DNA of 64,000 bases from Streptomyces formicae (GTDB lineage Bacteria; Actinomycetota; Actinomycetes; Streptomycetales; Streptomycetaceae): assembly GCF_022647665.1 (NCBI RefSeq), contig NZ_CP071872.1, positions 4,340,001-4,404,000 on the forward strand. The letters are read 5' to 3'. The stretch's first letter is position 1, and every line of letters begins with the position of its first letter. A model generated the notes under the pieces. That model was not told the DNA's origin. It ran no database searches and was given only the letters and a program-made list of their open reading frames with translations. Positions 23,546-29,433 of the stretch are shown in pieces. Made by a program: the position numbers and the translations under genes.

Positions 23546-24501
23546 GTGACGACGAACATGAATGCGAGCGGCGGGCACCTGATCTACGGGTGCATGGGAC
23601 TGGGCGGGTCCTGGGCACCCGAGCCCTACGGGGCGGCGGACATCGCCGCCGCCGAGGCGGCGGTCGTCGCGGCGCTGGAGATCGGTGTCACCACCTTCGA
23701 CCACGCCGACATCTACCGCCACGGCAAGGCCGAGGCGGTGTTCGGCGAGATCCTCGCCCGCACGCCGGGGCTCCGCGAGCGCGTCGTCCTGCAGACCAAG
23801 TGCGGCATCCGCCTCCCCGACGGCGACCGGCCCGGCATCTACGACCTGCGCGGAAGCAGCATCCTGCGCCGCGTGGAGGAGAGCCTGACCCGGCTGCGCA
23901 CCGATGCCGTCGACGTGCTCCTGCTGCACCGGCCGGATCCGCTGGCCGATCCCGACGACGTCGCGGAGGCGCTGACGTCCCTGCACCGGCAGGGCCTGGT
24001 CCGGCGGTTCGGCGTGTCGAACATGGCGGGCGAGCAGATCGCACCGCTGCTGGCCCGCCTCGACGTGCCGCTGGTGGCCAACCAGCTGGAGATGAGCCTC
24101 GACCGCCGCGACTGGCTCGAAGCGGGTGTCCTCGTGAACACGCCCGCCGCGGCGGGCGTCGGCCACCCGCTGGGCACCGTCGAGTACTGCCGCGCGAACG
24201 GCATCGAGCTCCAGGCGTGGGGCGCGCTGGCCCAGGGCCGCTTCACGGGCCGCCAGGAGACCCCGCAGGAGCGGGCCACCGCCGAACTGCTCGCCGCACT
24301 GGCCGAGAAGAAGGGCACCACCCCGGAATCGGTCCTGCTGTGGTGGCTGCGGCGCCACCCCGCCCGCATCGTCCCGGTCATCGGCAGCGCCAGTCCGGAG
24401 CGCATCCGCGCCTGCGGCGACGCGGCCCGGCGGGAGCCGGAGCTGAGCCACGAGGAGTGGTACGACCTCTGGCTGGCGGCGCGCGGAGCGCCGCTGCCGT
24501 A

Positions 24502-24502
<1 letters not shown>
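23546..24502 (+). CDS. Aldo/keto reductase
   Basis: A 318-residue NADPH-dependent oxidoreductase of the aldo/keto reductase superfamily. Motifs: YGCMGLGGSW, TTFDHADIYRHGKAEAVFG with the catalytic Asp and Tyr, VLQTKCGIRLPD with the Lys, LLLHRPDPL with the His, FGVSNMAG and the cofactor segment RIVPVIGSASPERI. It resembles the YdhF-type oxidoreductases. It is alone, with convergent modBC downstream separated by hexanucleotide repeats. The substrate is unknown. Confidence 0.9.
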
Positions 24503-24583
<81 letters not shown>

Positions 24584-24589
24584 TCGGTC

Positions 24590-26671
24590 TCAGACGGTCA
24601 CGAGGGTGGTCTCCGTCGCCTTGACGCTGGTCCACACGGGGGTGCCGTCCGCGAGGCCCAGTTCGGCGGCGGCCTGCGGGGTGATCTCGGCGACCAGGTC
24701 CGGGGCGTCGTCCGAGGTGATCAGGATCCGCAGTCTGCTGCCGCTCGCGGTGATCTCGCGCACCGTGCCGGGCCAGACGTTGCGCGGGCTGCCGCTCGGC
24801 CGGTCCCGGTGGACGGAGACCGCCTCGGGCGCGATGATCGCGAGCCCTTCGGTGCCGGCGGGGAGCGGATCCGCGACGACGAGCGTGCCGCCGCCGGGCA
24901 GCCGGAGGCCGTCGGCGGTGGCGGTGCCGGGCCAGGCGTTGCGGCCGAGCATGCGCGCGACCCACGGGGAGCGGGGGTGACGGGTGACCTCGGCGGGCGG
25001 CGCGTCCTGGAGGGCGCGGCCGTCGTCCAGTACGAGGACCCGGTCGGCGAGCGAAACGGCCTCCACCGGGTCGTGGGTGACGATCAGACAGACCCCGCCG
25101 AACCCCGCGAGATGGCTCCGCAGGGTGTGCCGGACATGGGCACGGGTGGTCTGGTCGAGGGCGGCGAGCGGTTCGTCGAGCAGCAGCAGCCGGGGGCGCA
25201 CGGCGAGCGCACGGGCGAGGGCGACCCGGCCCGCCTGCCCGCCCGACAGCTGCGCCGGCCTGCGGTGGGCGAGATGTCCGACGCCGAGCCGGTCCAGCCA
25301 CTCCTGGGCGGCGCGGCGCGCCTCTGCACGCGGGGTGCCGTGGGCCCGCAGCCCGTATGCGGTGTTGGCGAGGGCCGTGAGGTGCGGGAAGAGCGCGCCG
25401 TCCTGGGGGACCCACGCCACGCCCCTACGGTGCGGCGGGAGTCGGGTGACGTCCGCGTCTCCGAGGCTGAGGACGGCGTGGGAGCGCGGTGTGAGCCCGA
25501 GGAGGGCGCGCAGCAGGGTCGTCTTGCCCGCGCCGTTGGGGCCGACGACGGCGATGGTGGTGCCCGGGTCGGCGGCGAGGGTGAGCCGGTTGAAGCCGGT
25601 GACCTCGGCGTGCAGCGGCCAGTGTTCCCGGGGGCGTACGACCCCGGACGCGGACGGGGACAGGGGTACGGGGCCGGCGGCCGGTGCGGGCTCCTCCGCC
25701 ACCTGCGCGGGCGCTCGGGGCCGTTCGCCGGGTGCGCCGGTGAAGCGGCCGCGCAGGGCGATCAGCACGCCCATGGCGATCGCCAGCAGCAGGAGCGAGA
25801 CGGACGTCGCGGCCTCCGGCTGCTCCTGGAGCAGGAGATACACCTGGAGCGGCAGCGTCTGCGTCGTGCCGGGGAGGTTGCCCGCGAAGGTGATGGTGGC
25901 GCCGAACTCGCCGAGTGCGCGGGCCCAGGCGAGGGCTGCCCCGGCGATCAGGCCGGGCGCCACCATCGGCAGGGTGACGGTACGGAACACCCGCAGCGGC
26001 GAGGCGCCCAGGGACGCGGCGGTCTCCTCGTACCGCGGACGCAGCCCGGCCAGTGCGCCTTCGAGGCTGATGACCAGGAACGGCATCGCGACGAAGGTCG
26101 CCGCGACGACCGCGCCCGTGGTGTGGAACGGCAGGGTGAGCCCGAACCAGCTCTCCAGCCACGGCCCGAGCAGTCCCCGCCGGCCGAAGGCGAGCAGGAG
26201 GGCGACTCCCCCGACGGTGGGCGGCAGCACCATGGGCAGCAGCACGAGGGAGCGGACGAGCGCCTTGCCGGGGAAGTCCACCCGGGCGAGCAGCCAGGCC
26301 AGGGGGACGCCGAGGAGGAGGGACAGGCCGAGCGACCAGAAGGACACGAGGAGCGAGAGCCGGAGCGCCTCGACCGCGGCGGGGCTGGTGAGGTGCGCGC
26401 CGAGCTCGCCCCACTCGGTGCGGGCGACGATCCCGACGAGCGGCAGCAGCAGGAACGCGACGGCGAGCAGCGCGGGAACGGCCAGGGCCAGCGGGGTACG
26501 GGGGCCCGAGGAGCCGGAACCCGGGATCGTGCCGGGACCCGGCGTGGTGCCGGGATGCGGGGTCGTGCCGGGACCCGGCATGGTGCCGGGCCCCGGGGTG
26601 CGCGTGTCCGCCGCCTCGTGAGTGCGGTTGCCTGCTCGCTTCATCGGACGTCCCCGGGTCGGCCTCGTCAC
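24590..26671 (-). CDS. modBC: Fused molybdate ABC permease-ATPase (ModB-ModC)
   Basis: A 693-residue fusion. A linker of PGPGT repeats at the N-terminus precedes five or six membrane helices of ModB with the EAA loop ([23 protein letters not shown] and the [14 protein letters not shown] signature). From about residue 350 the ModC ATPase follows: [13 protein letters not shown], the Q-loop [36 protein letters not shown]. The C-terminus is a single Mop/TOBE domain ([23 protein letters not shown]) that binds molybdate. The GTG at 26671 overlaps the modA stop (GTGA); ATG 26644 is an alternative with a better SD. It imports molybdate with ModA. Confidence 0.93.
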
Positions 26672-27489
26672 GGCTTCTGGAAGCCCGCGTCCTGGAGGAT
26701 CTTCTGCGCCTCGGGACCGGCCAGCCAGGCCACGAACGCCGCGGCCGCCTCCGCGTTCCCGGACTGCTTCAGGGTGGCCGCCGGGTACTGGGCGACGGCG
26801 TTCTGCGCGTCGGGGATCTCGACCGCGTCGACCTTGTCCGCAGCGGCCGCGGCGTCCGTCCGGTAGACGAGGCCGGCATCGGCCTCGCCCAGCTCGACCT
26901 TGCTGAGCACGGCGCGGACGCTGGGCTCCTGGGAGACCGGCCGCACCACGATGTGCTGCGCGTCGAGGATCTGCTTGCTGTAGCGGCCGACGGGCACCTC
27001 GGGCGCCGCGAGCACGACCTTCAGGCCACTGTCCGCGAGGTCCTTCAACTCGTCGACGTTCTTCGGGTTTCCCTCGCCCGTGGCGATGACGAGCCGGTTC
27101 CTGGCGATGACCGCCGGGGTGCCCGTGTCGTCCTTCAGCCCGTCCATCGTCCTGGTGTCGGCGGTGACCAGCGCGTCGGCGGGGGCGCCCTGCCTCACCT
27201 GGGCGGCCAGTTCCTGCGACCCGGCGAAGGAGAAGGTGATCCTCGTGCCGGGGTGGGACTTCTCGTACGCCGTGCCCGCTGTCCTGAAGACGTCGGTCAG
27301 GGACGCGGCGGCGAGCACCGTGAGGCGGGCGGCAGGGGCGCCGGAGCCCTTCACCGCCTCGTCGCCGGTGGCGTCGTCGCTGCCGCAGGCGGCGAGCGGG
27401 ACGAGCAGTGCGGCCGTGAGGACGGCGGCGGCGTGGCGCCGGGTGATGCGGAGAGTTGTGACACGGAGAGTTGTGACGCTGCGGGACAT
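26668..27489 (-). CDS. modA: Molybdate-binding lipoprotein ModA
   Basis: A 273-residue periplasmic-type binding protein, here lipid anchored: basic start, hydrophobic [13 protein letters not shown] and lipobox LAAC. ModA features are [41 protein letters not shown], and [11 protein letters not shown] near the C-terminus. The N-terminus carries a duplicated VTTLR. It binds molybdate or tungstate outside the membrane and passes it to ModBC, whose gene overlaps by 4 nt. The HTH-TOBE regulator gene lies 91 bp upstream in the same direction. Confidence 0.95.
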
Positions 27490-27580
27490 CAGAGGTGAGC
27501 TCCTTGCGACTGCGGCCGGCGGATGCCGCCCGAGCGGGTGGTGAGAGCTGCGCCGGTGACGGACGACGCCGCGTGATCGG

Positions 27581-27976
27581 TCAGTTGCGGTCGATGTGCA
27601 CGTTGGTCGACTTCACGCGGGCGGTGGCCTGCATACCGACCTCCAGCCCGAGCTCCTCCACGGCCTCCCGGGTCAGCAGCGACACGAGCCGGTGCGGACC
27701 GGCCTGGATCTCGACCTGGGCGGCGACGTCGCCGAGCTTGACCGCCGTGACGATGCCGGGAAAGGCGTTGCGGGCCGACGTGTACGAGGTCTCCTCCTCG
27801 CCCGTGCCGGCCTGGGCGACTTCGACGGAGAAGGCGGCCAGGTCGCGGCCGTCGATGAGGCGGCGGCCGGTCTCGTCGCGATGGGTCGCGACCCGGCCGG
27901 CGTCCGCCCAGCGGCGGGCGGTGTCCGGGCTGACGCCCAGCAGGCGCGCCGCCTGTCCGATGGTGTAGGACTGCAT
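27581..27976 (-). CDS. Molybdate-responsive HTH-TOBE regulator (ModE-like)
   Basis: A 131-residue two-domain protein. An excisionase/MerR-like HTH occupies residues 1-55 ([25 protein letters not shown]) and a Mop/TOBE domain residues 65-131 ([35 protein letters not shown]). This is the actinobacterial replacement for ModE: oxyanion binding to the TOBE domain should control DNA binding. ATG 27976 has no SD and lies 7 nt after a TAGCGT box, so the transcript may be leaderless. It is the first gene of the leftward mod unit and divergent from the molbindin gene. Confidence 0.9.
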
Positions 27977-27983
27977 ACGCCAC

Positions 27984-28013
27984 ACGCTAGAGCGATATGG
28001 CTTGCATATACAA
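27984..28013 (-). promoter_or_regulatory. Promoter and operator of the molybdate regulator
   Basis: On the minus strand TTGTAT (28013-28008) and TAGCGT (27989-27984) are spaced by 18 nt, and the start codon follows after 7 nt. A perfect inverted repeat ATATG-N5-CATAT (27995-28009) sits in the spacer, where a repressor would block polymerase. It also faces the divergent molbindin gene. Confidence 0.6.
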
Positions 28014-28144
28014 CCCTCAGGGTGATCCTCCATGGCAAGTGCGAGGGAGCAGGAGGAAGGTACGAAGCGGGCGCCGCGCGTACGTGGTGCGTACCGGCGC
28101 GGATGCGGAGGGTGTGCTTACAGTGCTGGGGCAACCACCGGCGA

Positions 28145-28158
28145 GGAACCGAAGTTCC
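28145..28158 (+). promoter_or_regulatory. Small hairpin upstream of the molbindin gene
   Basis: GGAAC and GTTCC enclose a CGAA tetraloop 24 nt before the molbindin start. It could be an operator half or an RNA hairpin; nothing further supports a role. Confidence 0.3.
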
Positions 28159-28181
28159 GTTCGACGATCAAGGCGCATCCC

Positions 28182-28601
28182 ATGAGTCTCAGCATCCGCA
28201 ACCAGCTCCGCGGCACCGTCACCTCCGTCACCTCGGGCGAGGCCATGGCCACGGTGCGGGTCCATCTCGAGGGCGGCCAGGACATCACCGCGGCCGTCAC
28301 GGCGGATTCCGTCAAGGAGCTGGGCATCGCCGAGGGCTCCGCCGTCCGTGCCCTGGTCAAGTCGACCGAGGTGGCGCTGGCCACCGGGCCGGTCGAAGGC
28401 GTGAGCATCCGCAACCAGATCCCCGGCAAGATCATGACCATCGCCATGGGCGTGGCCATGGCGAGCCTCAAGCTCGAGGTGGAGGGCGGCGAGCTGACGG
28501 CCGCGATCACCAAGGAGGCCGTCGACGAGTTGGGGCTCTTCGTCGGCTCCTCCGTGATCGCCCTGATCAAGTCCACGGAAATCGCGCTCGCGACCGTCTG
28601 A
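28182..28601 (+). CDS. Di-Mop molbindin (molybdate-binding protein)
   Basis: A 139-residue protein made of two Mop/TOBE domains in tandem. Both begin with SIRNQ(L/I) and run through (R)GTVTSVTSGEAMATVRV / GKIMTIAMGVAMASLKLEV to LVKSTEVALAT / LIKSTEIALAT. Such molbindins assemble into cages that store molybdate or tungstate in the cytoplasm. ATG 28182 starts exactly at the first domain; the longer open frame upstream is non-coding in appearance. With ModABC and the HTH-TOBE regulator it completes uptake, sensing and storage in one locus. Confidence 0.92.
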   Translation: MSLSIRNQLRGTVTSVTSGEAMATVRVHLEGGQDITAAVTADSVKELGIAEGSAVRALVKSTEVALATGPVEGVSIRNQIPGKIMTIAMGVAMASLKLEVEGGELTAAITKEAVDELGLFVGSSVIALIKSTEIALATV

Positions 28602-28934
28602 TCGGCGGCCCTTCCCGAACCACGCAGCGTCCGTGCCGGGCCCGGGAAGCCGGGGCGGGGGCCCCGGCGCCGGTTACCCGAAGCGCGCGGCGAATCGGCG
28701 CTGCCACGGCGTCTCGACCGCCCGCGGCCCATGGTGCTCGCGGACGTAGGCGACCGCCTCAGCGCCCGGCACCCCGTCCAGCACCGCCAGACACGCCAGG
28801 GCCGTGCCGGTGCGCCCGTACCCCCCGCCGCACGCGATCTCGACGCGCTCCGTCGCGACCCTCTCCCACGCCTCGCGCAGCGCGGCGCCCGCGGCCGTGC
28901 GGTCGGACGGGAGCCGGAAGTCGGGCCGGCGCAG

Positions 28935-28973
28935 CATGGGGGTACCTTCCGTGCCGAAGGGCTACGGGGGAGG
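28935..28973. repeat. 39-bp short interspersed repeat
   Basis: GGGGGTACCTTCCGTG, then CCGAAGGGCTACGGGGGAG: the same unit occurs as GGGGGCACCTCCCGTGCCC with the same second half at 29124-29159, and as related palindromes at 29160-29193 and 41634-41671. Outer G-runs and inner C-runs make it weakly palindromic. Here it interrupts the phosphatase gene. Confidence 0.8.
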
Positions 28974-28998
28974 GACTCCCACGCGACGGCGGGCGGCC

Positions 28999-29236
28999 AG
29001 GCAGTGTCTGACGAATGGCGCCGTCCGCCCGCAGGGCGGGGCGCGCGGCGTCCGGTGCGTGCCCTCGCAAGGCGGAGGATCATCCGTGTACTGGACGTAC
29101 TCGGATGACGCCGACAACGCAGCGTGGGGGCACCTCCCGTGCCCGAAGGGCTACGGGGGTGGGGGCACCTCCCAGGCGCAAGCTCTGGGGGAGTGCCGGG
29201 CGTCGCGCGCCAGGCGGGATGTGTCAGACACCGCCT
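28999..29236. mobile_element. MITE-like element inside the tyrosine phosphatase gene
   Basis: The 238-bp element has 14-bp terminal inverted repeats with one mismatch (AGGCAGTGTCTGAC at 28999-29012; GTCAGACACCGCCT at 29223-29236). It holds no coding region and contains two copies of the short G/C repeat (29124-29193). It is flanked by CCAG (28997-29000) and CTAG (29235-29238), consistent with a 4-bp CTRG target duplication. The host gene is readable on both sides, which fixes the borders. Confidence 0.85.
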
Positions 29237-29433
29237 AGGGCCCCAGCAGGGACACGGCGAAGTCGGGCGCCGGGCCCGCCGGGAGCGGCCGCCGCAGGCC
29301 CCGGCCGCGCACCAGCCGCCCCGAGGGCAGCCGCATGACCCCGGGCGCCGGTTCCTGCCACGTGGCGTTCACGGCGCCGGCGTAGCCGTGGGCGCTCTTG
29401 TCCCCGCGACGGACAGCCCGGACAGTACCGTGC

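Follow-up and report, generated by a model that had tools for sequence, protein, structure and literature searches.

A CCAG/CTAG-flanked hairpin MITE of the IS5 kind in a broken phosphatase gene of Streptomyces formicae and the relatives of its core across the genus

Introduction

ERIC and Correia-type elements are long imperfect palindromes with a conserved fold, located mostly outside genes. Both are named in a review of bacterial MITEs (PMC10969869), and the word Streptomyces does not occur in its text or in that of a paper on REP elements (PMC3733652). Actinobacterial insertion sequences of the IS5 family with CTAG direct repeats are described in another source (PMC9241763). MITEs, CTAG-flanked IS5-family elements, and palindromic repeats are known, and the element considered here matches no title or abstract found in the literature searched, the scope of which left out most subscription journals.

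Here we describe a tyrosine-phosphatase-like gene of Streptomyces formicae (minus strand, 28674–29372 of the window, i.e., the whole analyzed stretch of 64,000 nucleotides) that is interrupted by a MITE and by a short G/C hairpin repeat, and we compare the MITE with its relatives in the same genome and across the genus.

Results

The interrupted phosphatase gene

Intact relatives of the broken gene are phosphatases of about 140 residues that contain a WPD motif as well as the loop CGGGxGRTG (CX5R). Three pieces of the gene are recognizable on the minus strand of the window: an N-terminal piece (VNATWQEP...PDFAVSLLG, 29239–29372), assigned by reading frame and homologue match and closed by the TAG of the flanking CTAG; a middle piece, WPPAVAWES (28973–28999), with the same spacing as in homologues; and a C-terminal piece with the CX5R phosphatase loop (28674–28937), assigned by a match to PF22784. 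The last is an 87-residue ORF whose ATG lies at the junction of repeat and flank, in agreement with the initial annotation of this locus. Against Pfam, the 86-residue C-terminal piece scores 29.1 bits for PF22784 (cut-off 27), and one intact homologue exceeds the cut-offs of both PF22784 and PF00102; for the polymorphic toxin phosphatase family Tc-R-P (PF22785, cut-off 27), the C-terminal piece and the intact homologue remain below the cut-off, at 20.3 and 20.7 bits, respectively. The broken gene is a stand-alone phosphatase of the DSP/PTP type, ordinary in itself. By reading alone, its neighbors at 24378–28601 resemble a molybdate-type ABC transporter with small Mop-like proteins.

Homologues of the C-terminal piece were found in 127 of the 199 genomes of the genus (S. 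formicae counted), and the named actinobacterial genomes yielded 461 relatives, for which 80 loci were kept. Orthology of the phosphatase loci is by similarity, and the 109 homologous loci include some genomes twice. Both gene pieces are 76–88% identical to their eight closest relatives, with pN of 0.06–0.13 for the broken pieces versus 0–0.13 among the eight closest of 67 intact relatives. All 16 near-invariant columns of the N-terminal piece are intact, and in the broken gene as a whole 2 of 61 near-invariant residues are altered, one of them being the Trp of the WPD motif, replaced by Arg in the C-terminal piece. Because the divergence of both pieces resembles that between intact relatives, the gene break looks recent on these sequence comparisons.

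Removal of the MITE with one tetramer gives LLG-PWPPAVA-WES, a spacing found in all 108 readable homologous loci (98 parsed by pattern and 10 by eye; one further locus, L180, lies at a contig edge and was unread), so that the rejoining of the gene proposed initially holds for the MITE. In four of the 98 pattern-parsed loci the pattern started at an earlier motif, with the identical spacing still visible. The 108 loci have seven residues at the MITE site and two ahead of the LRWPDF motif; therefore, both disruption sites are empty there. For the MITE, we observed neither insertions in all orthologues nor a lack of copies with matching ends.

The second disruption is not clean. Between WES and LRRPDF there are 38 nt in the window versus 6 nt (two codons, usually Arg-Trp) in homologues. 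By this comparison, the short G/C hairpin repeat at 28935–28972 replaces six bases, and the result is a net gain of 32 nt, a frameshift, and the loss of two codons. The short repeat as a clean second insertion was rejected, since frame and codon count fail and there is no duplication. The 39-bp excision suggested initially (28935–28973) also removes the final base of the Ser codon, and the C-terminal piece is then not in frame. Of the claim that both repeats are mobile, the part on the MITE is supported by empty sites, copies, and IS5 ends, whereas the part on the short repeat fails on the missing duplication, the six replaced bases, and the broken frame.

The short repeat is dispersed in the S. 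formicae genome, with 69 copies at three or fewer mismatches and none for the reversed pattern; the diverged copy at 28935–28972 is not among these 69. Thirty-one of them lie within or next to long MITE matches, and 33 are separated from every listed match by over 300 bases. Some MITE copies carry the repeat and others do not. In the window MITE, nested short G/C hairpin repeats occupy 61 bp (29132–29192), as delimited by an alignment of copies, and are absent from 173-bp copies such as L006; an exact 34-bp unit is found at 29126–29159.

The MITE and its copies

The MITE copy in the window is 234 bp long (29001–29234; 238 bp counting one tetramer), has its structured strand on the plus strand and the ends GCAGTGTCTGAC...GTCAGACACCGC, and was delimited by the copies in the same genome and by the core model described below. 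Its flanking tetramers, CCAG on the left (28997–29000) and CTAG on the right (29235–29238), differ by one transition and were assigned as the two copies of the target duplication by comparison with 29 complete copies. The initial annotation had placed the element precisely at 28999–29236; the copies confirm the repeat, and the borders of the element proper are corrected as above. Its inverted ends are as claimed, GGCAGTGTCTGAC and GGCGGTGTCTGAC pairing with one mismatch.

The search for other copies suggested earlier was productive. The S. formicae genome contains at least 57 blastn matches to 28999–29236 at E ≤ 1e-3 (40 of 212 candidates scored), including two copies 95–96% alike over near-full length and a third at 86%. 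The lengths in the family vary between 167 and 267 bp, and the copies of 172–173 bp lack the nested short repeats. Within this genome, related interiors are combined with different ends, namely A (GTGTCTGACA), B (GTGTCTTCAAAG), and C (GTGTTGCGAAAG). The 29 complete copies (24 from S. formicae and 5 from three other genomes, with 6 of 30 S. formicae loci and L119 omitted as incomplete) have CTAG on both sides in 14 cases, CTAG and a one-transition variant in 9 cases, and other flanks in 6, which supports the proposed 4-bp target duplication as one of CTAG type. The CTAG flanks are not due to chance, because CTAG is approximately 17-fold rarer in the window than expected from base composition (9 observed versus 153 expected). 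With terminal inverted repeats, a target duplication, multiple copies, and a length too short for a transposase, the element is a MITE of the IS5 kind.

By blastn, 56 plasmid records, all from Streptomyces, contain the MITE, and in 11 of them a single place covers 80% or more of the query. A phage origin was rejected at the blastn level, as no phage record matched. A known Rfam family as the identity of the hairpin was likewise rejected: in seven loci searched at E up to 5, the single match was to a human lncRNA family (E 4.7), far below the gathering score and outside the element. Very short relatives of the MITE, 53–67 bp including the flanking tetramers, were observed at L065 (887–953), L068 (749–801), and L284 (1501–1564), and bare end palindromes at L066 and L067. 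Six copies of the end CTGGGCCGTGTCTCAGT in S. formicae (G000:C1 623310, 1957572, 5104030, 5626585, 7233918, and 7877359) possibly belong to another CTRG-flanked element; the end pattern showed no partner end in the four stretches examined.

IS5-type elements as presumed movers

Autonomous elements with MITE ends of three types were found in other genomes, two of them matching over an exact 20-mer at one end. A-type ends occur on elements of about 930 bp with CTAG or TTAG flanks (L126, L127, and L152), and the identical 20-mer CTAGGCCGTGTCTGACAAAT is present in genome G076 at a sequence related to A-end transposase genes. The B type is represented by an element of about 0.91 kb (L267, genome G012), with the 12 nt GTGTCTTCAAAG in common with the MITE end, and the exact 20-mer CTAGGGCGTGTTTCGAAAGT by an element of about 0.94 kb (L361, genome G234). 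The exact 17-mer of the A end was found in 9 of 121 genomes, some matches being MITEs and others lying beside transposase-like sequence, and relatives of one transposase-linked A end, which led to the elements of about 930 bp, occur in 60 of 295 genomes, S. formicae not among them. The proteins of L146 (A-like ends), L267, and L361 exceed the cut-offs for PF13340 and PF01609 (DUF4096 and DDE_Tnp_1) and for the NCBI IS5 model NF033580.

A transposase with the same ends, for which a search was suggested initially, is represented by IS5-family elements of other genomes; in S. formicae, searches by end pattern, end sequence, and two transposase families found no intact insertion sequence with the MITE ends. 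The three intact IS5 copies of this genome (L098–L100) have other ends, GTGTTTTAGAA. An exact match of insertion sequence and MITE ends within a genome was rejected in six other genomes, where one MITE end was compared in each and recognizable insertion sequence ends were present in only some of the 30 loci. Because this exact comparison failed, it is the three end types found across genomes that connect the ends with their movers. In genome G064, the MITE copies ending in TGTCTTCAAAGT have TGTCTTCAAA in common with the insertion sequences of that genome.

A transposase would not fit into the MITE, which was most likely moved in trans by an IS5-family transposase of the NF033580 kind (DUF4096 + DDE). 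Such a mover would recognize ends like GGCCGTGTCTGACA. From the sequences we infer movement in trans and a partner available to S. formicae now or formerly. A cluster of DDE_Tnp_4 transposase genes was observed in S. formicae at G000:C1 4.12–4.16 Mb (10 of 17 matches). In L419 (NZ_CP109471.1; 320–1134 and 1801–1885), about 0.7 kb separates a core fragment from a gene annotated as an IS5 family transposase.

A conserved folded core

The consensus hairpin, derived from seven copies without nested repeats, contains 71 pairs, 18 of them with two-sided changes. A covariance model of the 141-nt core, constructed from these seven copies, matches 162 of the 199 genomes of the genus at E ≤ 1e-3 (S. formicae counted), with up to 16 candidates scored per genome under strict filters, and matches the window at 29017–29150 with 85.1 bits (E 4e-12). 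In the two alignments fitted to the model (A3 and A4; 35 and 81 copies), 97.9 and 97.0% of cells are paired, and two-sided changes are found in 165 and 376 cells, whereas shuffles give 44 and 103 such cells and slid structures no more than 17 and 47. A model-free alignment of 20 full elements with diverse ends gave a similar picture: for a structure taken from the seven copies, three of which are among the 20 rows, 98.6% of cells are paired, and 37 pairs and 172 cells show two-sided changes, the corresponding values being 19.5 and 46.5 after shuffling and no more than 14 and 25 in slid controls. Kinship of the sequences inflates these counts, and the slid control retains kinship.

Two G-U pairs are present in all 20 copies and two more in 19 and 18 of them; in the 78 distinct cores the same four pairs are found in 77, 68, 74, and 53 cases. 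Most internal-loop positions of the core are also conserved. Owing to several nearly invariant G-U pairs, folding is much more favorable for one strand than for its complement, with RNA folding energies of −87.7 versus −63.2, −108.5 versus −85.2, −108.9 versus −82.1, and −108.8 versus −82.4 kcal/mol. In the two cores tried as DNA, the same strand is again the better one (−44.2 versus −33.7 and −59.9 versus −49.4 kcal/mol). Selection for a folded single strand may underlie this conservation, and any function of the hairpin is putative.

Uncoupled ends and core

The arms show two or fewer mismatches in 17 nt in 52 of the 81 core matches (69 distinct flank pairs). These 52 copies have 39 distinct left arms and are flanked by CTAG on both sides (21 copies), one side (23), or neither (8). 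Several end types are found on related cores in single genomes, e.g., three each in G050 and G064, and L297 is a hybrid copy with two different ends. After 12 of the 81 core matches, the hybrid included, had been dropped for unlike arms, the tree of the remaining 69 rows requires 30 changes for 22 end types, with a minimum of 21 and a shuffle mean of 42.9; these 22 types on 69 rows are approximate, as some rows represent one place fetched twice (e.g., L301/L395). Single-linkage grouping of the end types merged GTTGCGAAAG with GTTTCGAAAG. Starred branches force at least two origins of the A end type in this tree, in which 42 of 62 inner branches are without strong support. The ends are uncoupled from the core, putatively by end exchange or by repeated adaptation to the same transposase.

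Landing on stop codons

For 53 flanked elements (24 from S. formicae; omitted were L293 at a contig edge, L296 and L303 as the places of L121 and L123, and L112), CTAG is found on 68 of 106 sides. By a rule on frame length and GC at codon positions, which defines "coding-like" here in place of annotation, frames 0, +1, and +2 are coding-like on 29, 1, and 0 of the 68 CTAG sides, frame 0 being the one with TAG as a stop, and on 3, 0, and 1 of the 38 sides without CTAG. A TAG stop of a coding-like frame is found at 27 of 44 CTAG-flanked elements. Without the window copy, whose frame is that of the broken gene, the count is 26 of 43 versus 17 of 82 background CTAG sites (Fisher p 2e-5); this background comprises 419 kb from the window, the homologue loci, and S. 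formicae stretches. Background CTAG sides are themselves biased to in-frame TAG (19 of 164 versus 3 and 1 in the other frames).

Twelve plasmid copies were inspected, 11 of them annotated. In three copies (H4, H7, and H9) the end of a gene extends over the edge of the element, the nearest gene ends towards the element on at least one side in seven of the 11 (H1, H2, H8, H10, H15, H19, and H21), and H26 is located between gene starts. An orientation bias of the core relative to upstream genes was rejected, as genes read into the two core strands about equally (12 versus 16); a simple 3' UTR RNA role of the folded strand is disfavored for the same reason.

Insertion at a C-TAG target with duplication of the target would leave the stop codon in place, and the copy would become the 3' flank of the gene. 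Because the stop codon would be preserved in this way, the usual landing would be harmless, and the window copy, located inside a gene, is most likely a damaging exception.

Discussion

The locus is very probably explained by the combination of a recent gene break, a MITE of the IS5 kind moved in trans, a short repeat, and a family whose landings on stop codons are tolerated. In this reading, the gene was interrupted by the 234-bp MITE at a tetramer of CTAG type, and the short repeat replaced two codons and shifted the frame. The family would owe its conservation to selection favoring tolerated landings and a folded single strand.

The order of events in the gene depends on the target of the window copy. 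It cannot simply have been CTAG in a gene still intact, as this tetramer would bring a TAG stop into the frame; hence, the copy either entered a CTGG/CCAG site or found the gene broken beforehand. CTGG or CCAG as the usual target was rejected, as none of the 29 complete copies has the same one of them on both sides, with CTAG on both sides in almost half of the copies, and these counts favor a gene that died first, by a nonsense change or by the short repeat, and received the MITE as a pseudogene. However, the left flank CCAG reads as Trp in the phosphatase frame and both gene pieces still look conserved, and we regard such an order as somewhat doubtful. The excess of stop-codon landings, in turn, need not reflect target preference, because the background is biased and harmful insertions are presumably lost. 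A reading in which CTAG survives at such sites in GC-rich genomes and harmful insertions disappear, with no preference of the mover, has about even chances: the bias of background CTAG to in-frame TAG speaks for it, whereas the MITE sites are approximately threefold above that background, although purging within genes could cause this excess too.

For the fold, a by-product of palindrome correction by template switching, with no selection on a single strand, appears unlikely. The terminal arms are indeed near-perfect and co-varying (helix 1), being identical over 17 nt in 26 of 69 distinct flank pairs, but palindrome correction would yield Watson–Crick pairs, and the four G-U pairs are retained in one strand in 18–20 of 20 copies, as are most internal-loop positions of the core. 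Action of the fold as single-stranded DNA rather than RNA, at the replication fork or in recognition by the transposase, has a slightly better standing and is still rather improbable. It agrees with the unbiased orientation of the core to upstream genes and with the better folding of the same strand as DNA in the two cores tried; on the other hand, IS5-family transposases cut double-stranded DNA, and the identity of the partner seems to be set by the terminal repeats alone.

We tentatively consider the family as a selfish structured module found across the genus, which would swap its ends to follow different IS5-type transposases and survive on C-TAG stops that its target duplication preserves, thereby becoming the 3' ends of genes; the hairpin would then be under selection as a single-stranded (RNA) structure. 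This view is plausible, if somewhat less probable than its opposite. One folded core is present in about four-fifths of the sampled genomes of the genus, with exchangeable ends and often at amber stops. The family offers a natural experiment on the persistence of non-autonomous elements beyond that of their transposases. Landing on stop codons offers a reason why GC-rich genomes can tolerate CTAG-targeting elements, and a mobile hairpin may lie at many gene ends in Streptomyces.

Comparison with known systems

By their general description, ERIC and Correia-type elements have in common with the present family a long imperfect palindrome with a conserved fold, mostly outside genes, and the present family differs in its CTAG flanks, IS5-type partners, and side hairpin. 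The short repeat resembles REP elements (PMC3733652) and Rickettsia palindromic elements (PMC10969869) in being a short G/C-rich palindrome with many copies, sometimes within genes; in contrast to GTAG-tagged REP, its GTAG lies inside the stem and not as a tag at the end of the palindrome. The IS5-family elements of PMC9241763 share 4-bp CTAG repeats, membership in the IS5 family, and two-frame IS427-like relatives; they are autonomous, and elements of this sort presumably move the present family. In the review PMC10969869, bacterial MITEs that descend from insertion sequences are likewise short, non-coding, and multicopy, with inverted repeats, a target duplication, and an insertion sequence partner with the same ends. 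The present family is distinguished from them by one structured core across the genus, many different ends, and landing on stop codons.
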